DNA from: Halorubrum cibi
GTDB lineage: Archaea > Halobacteriota > Halobacteria > Halobacteriales > Haloferacaceae
Direction of reading: 5' to 3'
Length of the DNA: 64,000 bases
Assembly (NCBI RefSeq): GCF_900182635.1
Contig: NZ_FXTD01000001.1
Coordinates: forward strand, 310,001-374,000
Of this stretch, positions 59,292 to 62,110 are shown piece after piece (position 1 is the stretch's first letter; every line of letters starts with the position of its first letter). The notes beneath the pieces are model-generated. The model made no database searches, was not told where the DNA came from, and saw nothing but the letters and a program-made list of their open reading frames with translations. The translations under genes and the position numbers were made by a program.

Positions 59292-60617
59292 TCACTCGTC
59301 GCGGCCGGCGAAGTCCGCGAGGTTCGCCTGGAGACCCGCCGCCATCGTCGACTTCCGTCGGAGGCGACCGACCGAGATCGGGAGGTGGGACGCGACGCCC
59401 CGGACCGCCTCGCCGAACGTCTCGGCGGTCCCGCGTTCGCCCTCGAAGGCGTTCCGGACGGCCTCGCGCACCTGCCAGACGCCGACCGGCCCCCAGTAGT
59501 CGTCCGAGACGTGCCGGCAGACGAGGACCTTCGCCTGTCGTCCGCGGTCGTGGAGGTGTTCCAAGACGCCGAGGCGCGCGGCGTAGTACGCGCCCGCGGT
59601 CTCCTCGACGTACCCCGTCCGTCCCTCGCGGCCCTCGCTCGCGGCCGCGAGGTAGACCCCGGCGTCGGGGTCGGGGTTCCAGATCGAGCCGGGCGCTTTC
59701 AGCTCGACCAGCTCGTACTCCCAGTTGCCGGGGACGAGGACGACCCAGAAGGCGTTTCCGAGGTACTCGTTTCGGTGGACTTCGATCCGGTCCACCGACG
59801 GGTTGTCGCGGATCGACCCGCGGAGGAACGTCCCGACCGTGTCGTCGACGGCGGTGATCGACCAGCGCGTCGGCACGAGCCGCCGGTTCCTCCCGCGCCC
59901 GAGCGCGCCCGCGGAGAGGATCGTATTAATCTCGTACACGTCGAACCCGCGGCGGTAGAGATACGTCATCGCGCCCTCCGCGCGCCAGTCGTCGTCCTCC
60001 AGCGTCTTCTTCACCGGTCGCGGGACGTGCGGGTTCTCGCCGAGGGCGGCCTCGCGCGCCGCCGCCCGCGGGCCGGTGGGCGTCTTCACGTCCTCCACGC
60101 CCACCTCGAAATCGAGGTCGGGGGTGCCGTCGAGGCCGATCTCGACGTCGACGGGACGGTCCGCAATCGCGACCTCGCGCTGGACGCCGAGCCAGCCGTC
60201 CCACGCGTCGTGGACGCTCGCCCCGTCGGTGCCGGAGCCGCCAGACCCGACCCCGCTCGCTCCCGCGTCGGTCACGTCGACGCCGCGGTTGGCGTTGAGC
60301 AGGCTGGTTCGGCGCTCGAAGACGTCCGCGATCGACACGCCCTCGTCGTACCACGCGCCGGAGGTCCGGAAGCTGGCGGCGCGCTCCTCGCGGCCGACCG
60401 GCGAGAGCAGCCCGGTCGAGACGTTGGGATAGTCCGAGCGGCCGACGAAGATCGACGGGGAGACGCTACCGACGACCGCGTCGTCGGAGACCTCCGCGTC
60501 GAAGCGCCGCTCGAAGGAGTCGAGGTGGTCGAGTATCCCGTAGTCCTTCTCGCGGGCGAGCCGCCGGCGCTCGGCGCGCTCGTTCGCCTCGAACTCGAGG
60601 TAGTTGTCGAGCCGCAT
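59292..60617 (-). CDS. nreA: NreA-family DNA repair protein
   Basis: This 441-aa protein is archaeal NreA: YGILDHLDSFERRFDA, SVSPSIFVGRSDYPNVSTG and VGLL-like conserved segments are present. It ends ALQANLADFAGRDE-like, with QANLADF resembling a PIP box for binding the sliding clamp PCNA. NreA works in repair of alkylation damage, including that by mitomycin C in Haloferax. A TATA-like GTTGAAGCC is about 30 nt upstream. The repeat-rich block follows upstream. Confidence 0.88.
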   Translation of the reverse strand: MRLDNYLEFEANERAERRRLAREKDYGILDHLDSFERRFDAEVSDDAVVGSVSPSIFVGRSDYPNVSTGLLSPVGREERAASFRTSGAWYDEGVSIADVFERRTSLLNANRGVDVTDAGASGVGSGGSGTDGASVHDAWDGWLGVQREVAIADRPVDVEIGLDGTPDLDFEVGVEDVKTPTGPRAAAREAALGENPHVPRPVKKTLEDDDWRAEGAMTYLYRRGFDVYEINTILSAGALGRGRNRRLVPTRWSITAVDDTVGTFLRGSIRDNPSVDRIEVHRNEYLGNAFWVVLVPGNWEYELVELKAPGSIWNPDPDAGVYLAAASEGREGRTGYVEETAGAYYAARLGVLEHLHDRGRQAKVLVCRHVSDDYWGPVGVWQVREAVRNAFEGERGTAETFGEAVRGVASHLPISVGRLRRKSTMAAGLQANLADFAGRDE

Positions 60618-60709
60618 TCGTCCGCCGTTGGGCGCGGGCGGGCTTCAACGTTGCTTCGGTGGTAGAGTCACGAACCATGTGCGTATCTGTGGTCGGCGCG
60701 CGCCTCCGA

Positions 60710-60980
60710 GCGTCCCAACGGGACGCGAGGAGCCCGCGCGAGGGACGCGGCGAGCGGTGAAACCGCGAGCCGCAGCGAGGCGCTCCGCGCCTCTGGCAGC
60801 CGGACGTAGTCCGGCGACGAGGTTGGGGAGGCGTGAGGTGCGGTTTGCGGGGCTGTGCGGGGTGGGACTCAAAGGGGCGGCCGGGAGGCGGGCGCAGGCG
60901 ACGTAAGCACTGAGGGAACGAACGAAGTGAGTGACCGAAGCGCGCAGCGAGCGTGCGCCCGCCTCCCGGCTGGGGCTTTG
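60710..60980. ncRNA. Candidate structured element or transposable-like repeat
   Basis: Consecutive hairpins are visible: GCGTCCC-AAC-GGGACGC (60710-60726), GCGGT-GAA-ACCGC (60754-60766), GAGGCGC-TCC-GCGCCTC (60777-60793) and GCCGGA-CGTAG-TCCGGC (60799-60815). Then GGTGGGACTCAAAGGGGC leads into the large stem (60870-60980). Whether this acts as RNA, a DNA-binding element or a MITE-like repeat cannot be decided from one copy. I have an unverified recollection that a similar block recurs in Halorubrum genomes. Confidence 0.45.
60880..60970. repeat. 17-bp perfect inverted repeat with 57-nt loop
   Basis: GCCGGGAGGCGGGCGCA (60880-60896) is exactly complementary to 60954-60970. Just outside, CAAAG (60870-60874) pairs with CTTTG (60976-60980). 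Five unpaired bases on each side (GGGCG and TGGGG) form a symmetric internal loop. The loop contains repeated GAACGAACGAAGTGAGTG-type sequence. Confidence 0.9.
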
Positions 60981-61105
60981 ATCGTGTTCATCGCGTCGAT
61001 GACAGCGCAGTACCGAACGATGCGGGTTTTGACGGTGTTCACCGCGCCGACAACGATCGAAAACCGGTCGGCCGGGGAGTGGAAGGCCCTCACCGCATCG
61101 ACGAC
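60953..61105 (-). repeat. Three imperfect 51-nt tandem repeats downstream of tfb
   Basis: Three units with exact 51-nt period lie at 61055-61105, 61004-61054 and 60953-61003 on the minus strand. If read in the TFB frame they would give 17-residue units beginning VVDAV, VVGAV and VIDAM. The unit starting at 61003 also contains the right arm of the inverted repeat. Confidence 0.7.
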
Positions 61106-61108
61106 GAC

Positions 61109-62110
61109 CTATGCGTGGATGCCCATCGCCTCGATCTGCTCTTGATACCGGTTTCGGATGGTGACCTCGGTGACCTGTGCGACGTCGGCGACCTCGCGTT
61201 GGGTCTTCTTCTCGTTACACAGAAGCGAGGCGGCGTAGATCGCCGCCGCAGCGTACCCCGTCGGAGACTTCCCCGACAACAAGCCCTGCTCGGCGGTGGT
61301 CTCGATGATCTCGTTGGCCTTCGACTGGACCTCCTCGCTGAGACCGAGCTCCGAGGAGAATCGCGGGACGTACTTCTGAGGGTCGACGGGACGCATCTCC
61401 AACCCGAGCTCCTGAGAGATGTAGCGGTAGGTCCGGCCGATCTCCTTGCGGTCGACCCGCGAGACGTCAGAGATCTCCTCGAGCGAGCGGGGGATCCCCT
61501 CCTTGCGACAGGCGGCGTAGAGCGCGGCGGTGGAGACGCCCTCGATGGACCGGCCGCGGATGAGGTCCTCGTTGAGTGCGCGTCGATAGATGACCGAGGC
61601 AACCTCTCGGACCGATCGGGGGACGCCGAGGGCACTCGCCATCCGGTCGATCTCCGAGAGCGCGAACTGGAGGTTCCGCTCGCCCGCGTCCTTCGTCCGA
61701 ATTCGCTCCTGCCACTTGCGCAGCCGGTGCATCTGCGAGCGCTTCTTCGAGGAGATGGAGCGCCCGTACGCGTCCTTGTCCTTCCAGTCGATCGTGGTCG
61801 TCAGCCCCTTGTCGTGCATCGTCTTCGTCGTCGGCGCGCCGACGCGGGACTTCGACTGCCGCTCGGAGTGGTTGAACGCCCGCCACTCCGGGCCGGGGTC
61901 GATCTGCTCCTCCTCGACGATGATCCCGGTCTCCTCGTGTATCAGTTCGCCGTCGGCCGTCCGGGTGAGCTCCGCCGGGTCGAGGTCGTCGGGGTCCAGC
62001 TCGTCGGGATCGACCTCCTCGATGTCCACCTCGTCGGTTTCCGATCCCTCCGCGTCCTCGTCCCGCACGCGCTGCCGGTCGTGATCCCGTTGCCGGGTGG
62101 GCCGTGTCAT
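61109..62110 (-). CDS. tfb: Transcription initiation factor TFB lacking zinc-ribbon cysteines
   Basis: The 333-aa factor recruits RNA polymerase to TBP-bound promoters. The B-reader/linker region ([20 protein letters not shown]) and two cyclin folds are intact: first from [19 protein letters not shown] to [12 protein letters not shown], second ending in [21 protein letters not shown]. The N-terminal region, where CxxC pairs normally form the zinc ribbon, has no cysteine. It reads [19 protein letters not shown], with the second pair replaced by His and Thr. The gene ends with TAG. The N-terminal stretch is acidic, [20 protein letters not shown] box lies 34 nt upstream of the ATG. Confidence 0.93.

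Follow-up and report, generated by a model that had tools for sequence, protein, structure and literature searches.

The intergenic region considered here lies within the window, a 64,000-nucleotide stretch of Halorubrum cibi DNA, and is flanked by nreA (59292-60617, - strand), encoding the DNA repair protein NreA, and tfb (61109-62110, - strand), encoding TFB. The stretch between the two genes that contains the repeat block is noncoding, as a preliminary description of the sequence had it, and positions 60698-61000 constitute one copy of a dispersed intergenic repeat family. The parts of the locus are as follows.

60698-60772, + strand: 5' module of two hairpins, recognised from the sequence, its inverted repeats and partial copies in the own genome
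60710-60726, + strand: hairpin 1 of the 5' module, GCGTCCC-AAC-GGGACGC
~60747-60772, + strand: hairpin 2 of the 5' module, GCGGC-GA-GCGGT-GAA-ACCGC-GA-GCCGC, with tandem GA between the two stem parts
60773-60816, + strand: nested double hairpin, GAGGCGC/GCGCCTC at 60777-60793 and GCCGGAC/GTCCGGC at 60799-60815
60817-60859, + strand: conserved unpaired leader of Halorubrum copies, GAGGTTGGGGAGGCGTGAGGTGCGG..., from an alignment of 62 copies
60860-60989, + strand: class-wide core element, GGGTGGGACTCAAAGGGGC - stem - GACGYAAGCAC - GA ladder - GCGCAGCGA - stem - GGGGCTTTG
60869-60874, + strand: 5' arm of the basal stem, TCAAAG, pairing with CTTTGA at 60976-60981
60878-60897, + strand: 5' arm of the long stem, pairing with 60953-60972; 60880-60896 and 60954-60970 form a perfect 17 bp
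60914-60936, + strand: apical GA ladder, GG-GA-AC-GA-AC-GAA-GT-GA-GT-GA-CC, with covarying 2-bp steps, tandem GA between them and a 3-nt closing loop
60953-60981, + strand: 3' arms of the long and basal stems, from inverted repeats and folding
60971-61130, + strand: three decayed tandem copies of a ~51-bp unit that starts with the 3' end of the element (GGCTGGGGCTTTGGAGGTGTTCACCGC...)

In Halorubrum the core has acquired the leader, the 5' hairpins, the nested double-hairpin repeat and the ~51-bp tandem 3' unit. The 5' module differs from copy to copy and occurs only in Halorubrum-like genomes. The nested double hairpin is a separate small repeat found in both orientations, only within or next to family copies, and in 1.2 Mb of a related genome (G019) all 11 of its 11 occurrences are no more than 200 bp from a copy. 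Within the tandem array 60973-61056 matches 61024-61107, and intact units are present beside other family copies. The core itself (R1 match, 132.5 bits) has at its 5' end, at 60860-60874, the sequence GGTGGGACTGAAAG, which may resemble the 3' end of haloarchaeal CRISPR repeats (GTGGGATTGAAAC).

All of the secondary structure noted beforehand is present. The four short hairpins in a row all have 3-nt loops, the inner stem of hairpin 2 (GCGGT/ACCGC) lying at about 60754-60766, and the 17-bp inverted repeat is perfect. The symmetric 5-nt internal loop (GGGCG at 60875-60879 against TGGGG at 60971-60975) and the 5-bp extension beyond it (CAAAG/CTTTG) can be read from this one sequence, and the family alignment refines them to a GGG/GGG loop and a 6-bp outer stem (TCAAAG/CTTTGA), because the next two positions pair (one as C-G, the other as A-U in most copies and as G-U in the window copy). 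The apical GA ladder, the decayed ~51-bp tandem copies and the separate, nested nature of hairpins 3 and 4 had not been recognised.

A suspicion that similar blocks recur in Halorubrum proved correct, with related sequence in 39 of the 39 same-genus genomes searched, at about 40 places in the own genome and in about 60 copies in 1.2 Mb of G019, or one per 20 kb. The core is the more widespread module, and beyond the genus it recurs alone. A covariance model built from 47 copies and searched in 145 sampled Halobacteria genomes matches 115 of them, representing 46/58 genera, and copy numbers range from zero to more than 100 per genome, with many genomes having none. The family appears confined to the class: about 204 other genomes of the phylum gave no match, all 35 matches of that sample being in class genomes. 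A search of 2.9 million viral contigs for an exact 19-base motif came up empty, and BLAST returned no phage record and only three plasmid records, the plasmid query being of Halorubrum type and so liable to miss diverged copies. The family matches none of 4227 Rfam families at gathering or permissive thresholds (E up to 1), and a literature search extending to motif strings, within what is available outside subscription, found no paper describing it.

The proposal that the block is structured beyond chance is borne out by folding. The 311-nt + strand sequence folds with z = -6.2 (0/100 shuffles as good) and the 114-nt core with z = -9.1 (0/200), the - strand giving a lesser z = -4.3. Aligned copies define the core as a single rod, and single-sequence RNA folding gives the same architecture in distant copies. 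At the base is a 6-7-bp stem, followed by the GGG/GGG internal loop and a 12-20-bp stem of nearly free sequence; above these are a second stem behind tandem GA, a conserved internal loop (GACGYAA/GCAGCGA) and a short stem (GCACY/RGMGC), and the apex is a ladder of 2-bp steps with tandem GA between them and a 3-nt loop (e.g. GG-GA-GC-GA-AC-GAA-GT-GA-GC-GA-CC). Tandem GA steps and GNA loops are stable in RNA and DNA alike. Similar sequence elsewhere has kept this pairing with many compensatory changes: standard pairs occupy 98.3% of 1191 alignment cells, 19/26 pairs of the core alignment have changed on both sides, and the basal stem is CTCAAAG/CTTTGGAG in Halorubrum and CTGAAAG/CTTTCA in other genera, a compensatory swap. 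In the ladder six of six pairs covary and the GA between the steps is constant. The covariation score of 0.560 compares with 0.173 ± 0.010 over 500 shuffles, and sliding the partners gives no more than 0.078; the shuffles yield no formal probability because the copies are related, but the slid control retains that relatedness and falls short by a wide margin. Judged from these alignments, the core fold appears to be kept by selection.

The core stem region also accommodates extra hairpins, the nested double hairpin in Halorubrum (L007 634-814, L035 584-756, L040 417-597) and other hairpins in Haloarculaceae (L244, L292, L340). At five loci (L012, L024, L028, L017, L035) a second repeat (GCCACCTTTTTC..CGTCGGG.ACCC..TCGCTCACTGCGTTCGCTTCGGGAACC..) is located 150-330 bp upstream of the core; it includes a GA-ladder hairpin that is oppositely oriented, and such ladders may be a repeat motif general to haloarchaea.

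The two strands are not equivalent. Among 162 distinct copies, chosen by a filter neutral to both mismatches, the long stem contains 53 G-T and 16 A-C oppositions; since the opposite strand would reverse these numbers, pairing matters on the + strand, which starts GGGTGGGA. This bias fits an RNA and fits a single-stranded DNA signal too, G-T being the better mismatch in DNA as well. RNA parameters reproduce the consensus fold in all copies tried and DNA parameters in only some, although the DNA parameters may undervalue GA pairs.

Mobility of the core is well supported outside Halorubrum. In the metagenome-assembled genomes QH_7_66_36, QS_9_67_17 and SW_9_67_24, and in Halonotius roseus, the core is situated between GTGTTCAGATAAGC and its inverse, at a fixed distance from these terminal repeats (about 43 bp on the left and 48 bp on the right), to give units of 202-212 bp, or of 331-333 bp where two cores are paired head-to-head. 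Units of 202-333 bp are too short to encode a transposase. In two of these genomes the GTGTTCAGATAAGC end motif was counted 59 and 71 times and its reversed form not once, and 15 of 40 terminal-repeat-bounded units are flanked by 8-bp target duplications (at least 7/8 bases matching), compared with 1.8% when flanks are shuffled. A 689-bp IS6-family element in Halonotius roseus shares these ends; it is flanked by an 8-bp duplication (CTAGTACC) and encodes a transposase of the IS6 family (NF033587, 189 bits, cut-off 125), and the terminal repeats of the units are those of the intact element letter for letter over 13-14 bases. IS6 elements generate 8-bp duplications and the archaeal ones are 700-750 bp long (PMC7986276). 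From the ends and the duplications together, we conclude that an IS6-type miniature inverted-repeat transposable element (MITE) carries, or once carried, the core in those lineages. Derivatives of 118-133 bp, in which the hairpin between GGGGC repeats is lost, also occur.

The window copy has no IS6-type ends, and none were found near Halorubrum copies; in 1.2 Mb of G019 the end motif occurs seven times (four for the reversed control), never near a copy. The own genome does have intact IS6 elements with the same ends as the MITE units. One intact IS6-family transposase gene (G000:C15:18912-19127, L376) is bounded by GGCGGTGTTCAGATAAGG and CTTATCTGAACAGTACC, and the inner left end of this element, GGATTGAAAGG, is loosely like GGGACTGAAAGG of the core. 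Because IS6-type ends are absent near Halorubrum copies, the window copy belongs to the family by virtue of its core, and its mode of arrival is inferred.

The nreA-tfb spacer contains the repeat in five close species of the genus, in full in the own species, G037 and G045 and with a deletion in G019 and G011; in two further species it is cut by contig ends, and in some twenty less related species it is 76-170 bp long and lacks the repeat. We interpret this pattern as one gain within the genus or, less likely, one loss. In three other Halorubrum species (L109, L112, L124) the spacer is 1043-1328 bp long and contains unrelated inserted genes, and the site therefore accepts insertions in general. 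The search in Halorubrum recovered no empty site bearing an exact target duplication, and most of the own copies are at places shared with G019: at 15 own-genome copies with orthologous flanks in that genome, most places hold a copy or a remnant there too. Among same-place copies with flanks 82-96% identical, whole stems can differ, with both arms changed at once.

The earlier suggestion of either a mobile repeat or a structured RNA is supported at the level of sequence, by the units with terminal repeats and 8-bp duplications in other genera and by the compensatory pairing. The two readings are not mutually exclusive; taken together, the findings point to a mobile repeat whose cargo is a selected fold. 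From the dispersal of the family, its covariation and + strand bias, its presence or absence at one site among related species, and the units with IS6-family ends in other genera, we interpret the block, with a probability of about 0.7, as a copy of a class-wide, dispersed, non-autonomous MITE-like repeat of haloarchaea whose 130-nt core hairpin is kept folded by selection. An IS6-family transposase would move the unit in trans in lineages with IS6-type ends. In Halorubrum the repeat would have lost or changed those ends, and its copies would now be mostly inherited in place, swapping stem blocks by ectopic gene conversion. The fold would act as the + single strand, either as RNA or as DNA during replication or transposition, with the tandem GA steps and 3-nt GNA loops presumably stabilising it in high salt. 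Three observations weigh against this MITE-like explanation: the absence of IS6-type ends near Halorubrum copies keeps it from reaching the window copy's own transposition, Halorubrum yielded no exact empty site and most own copies share their places with G019, and the compensatory change seen at fixed sites exceeds the needs of a dead transposon remnant.

Compensatory change at positional orthologs also speaks for the alternative that copies at many loci are kept because a folded + transcript serves the cell, through protein binding, mRNA stability or as a decoy, and that mobile units captured it. At 28 positional-ortholog pairs outside the genus, which share species and so are not independent, 128 of the 181 changed stem pairs have changed on both sides and remain paired, with 23 one-sided and 30 broken. 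In G101 and G152, each with two copies, a 12-bp stem at a shared site differs by four double compensatory changes, against 89-91% identity in the flanking genes. Where copies are many, gene conversion between them can account for swaps of blocks, but it is a poorer explanation for this pair. A position between genes that we take to be nucS and endA, from recognising their proteins, recurs in Natrinema, Haloterrigena and Haloarcula (L215/L081, L226, L235, L286, L324, L303) and holds the sole copy in G145; it is either conserved across families or has been hit repeatedly, and low-copy genomes have no neighbour gene common to all. The excess of G-U over A-C and the closer match of the consensus to RNA folds point in the same direction. 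Against these stand the absence of a conserved TATA-like signal or AT peak upstream of the core, the lack of an orientation preference relative to genes in Halorubrum, and a copy number that varies from none to over a hundred, with many genomes doing without.

The insertion pattern agrees with a mobile repeat: none of 88 copies is inside a gene, and in this first set there is no orientation preference relative to neighbours. In a larger set, copies in Halorubrum lie more often between convergent genes; for 84 of 128 copies in other genera the downstream gene shares the strand of the copy, which is mostly 75-125 nt before the start codon, distances that are approximate because the gene caller was home-made. 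In those downstream genes an AT-rich box precedes the start codon at -26 to -29, where leaderless haloarchaeal genes would be expected to have one, and the element is accordingly upstream of their promoters and outside their messages. This rules out a 5' leader or riboswitch-like role.

On balance we regard a host-functional RNA as possible rather than probable. A fuller version seems to us slightly less probable still: that the core is a new, Halobacteria-confined class of structured RNA which IS6-type MITEs carry and spread and which selection maintains in place for its function as RNA, at single-copy loci such as nucS-endA and in genomes with many copies alike, by means of a rod of tandem sheared GA steps fitted to high-salt cells. 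For the fold, a role at the level of the transposon and one at the level of a host RNA have similar odds.

An alternative explanation for the covariation is mutational, the arms staying complementary through template switching inside the hairpin with no help from selection. In two copies (L004 1649-1787, L064 294-424) the stem arms are intact but the apical loop between them is inverted, as recombination at the arms might produce, and in four (L102, the nreA-tfb spacer of G019, and L360, L372 and L368) everything between two GGGGC strings is deleted, leaving GGGACTCAAAGGGGCTTTGG or similar, which is repeat-mediated loss of the hairpin. The DNA thus does form, or recombine at, the hairpin. However, template switching would also convert the mismatches of the tandem GA and the GGG/GGG loop to perfect pairing, and both are almost invariant; nor would it favour G-T over A-C on one strand. 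We consider this explanation improbable.

Still less probable is an element in which single-strand DNA hairpins are recognised by a Y1 transposase (RAYT or TnpA), as in bacterial REP/BIME sequences, or a remnant of IS200/IS605-derived PATEs, which are known in Haloquadratum (PMC3119063). Strand-specific hairpins, intergenic placement, head-to-head pairs resembling BIMEs and hundreds of candidates per genome would agree with it, but no Y1 transposase domain (PF01797) was found in the own genome, in a search whose control recovered PF01797 in Haloferax volcanii, none of the eight TnpB genes of the own genome adjoins a copy, and the terminal-repeat-bounded units have 8-bp target duplications, which PATEs are described as not making (PMC3119063). 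The RAYT and TnpB links are accordingly ruled out. The least probable reading is a transcription terminator or other mRNA 3' or 5' element, for although several copies in low-copy genomes are 20-80 nt past a same-strand stop codon, the element has no T tract, occurs in both orientations and is outside the leaders of downstream genes, which have their own AT-rich box.

The family stands close to several known systems and differs from each. It resembles the IS6-family elements of Halobacteria and IS6-derived MITEs, of which two of 227 and 336 bp are listed (PMC7986276), in its IS6-matching terminal repeats, 8-bp duplications, unit length of 202-333 bp and lack of coding capacity, and differs in having a hairpin conserved and covarying across the class and Halorubrum copies with no IS6-type ends beside them. 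The SMR-A/B and PATE sequences of Haloquadratum walsbyi are likewise short, non-coding, multicopy and haloarchaeal, but are described in PMC3119063 as lacking target duplications, with SMR ends matching no known transposon; its main text describes no conserved fold with compensatory change, a further difference, although the present family may coincide with one of those short repeat families. With REP/BIME sequences and their RAYTs (PMC2817692) it shares intergenic palindromes in hundreds, some in head-to-head pairs, but it has a 130-nt rod with tandem GA steps and no RAYT in the own genome. It shares a covarying single-strand fold with Rfam RNA families in general, while matching none of them.

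What is new is the fold, together with its persistence, and not the way in which the repeat moves. MITEs usually carry only their ends, whereas the MITE-like units of this family carry a fold kept by matched mutations across the class, including sites in genomes where only one to three copies exist. Mobile DNA is thereby joined to a structure apparently protected by selection, in a repeat family that occurs in most haloarchaeal genera and reaches one copy per 20 kb in Halorubrum. This raises a testable question, whether the transposons carry a functional RNA or the cargo serves the transposase as a single-strand DNA signal, and copies are available for it at known coordinates in culturable species, low-copy ones included.
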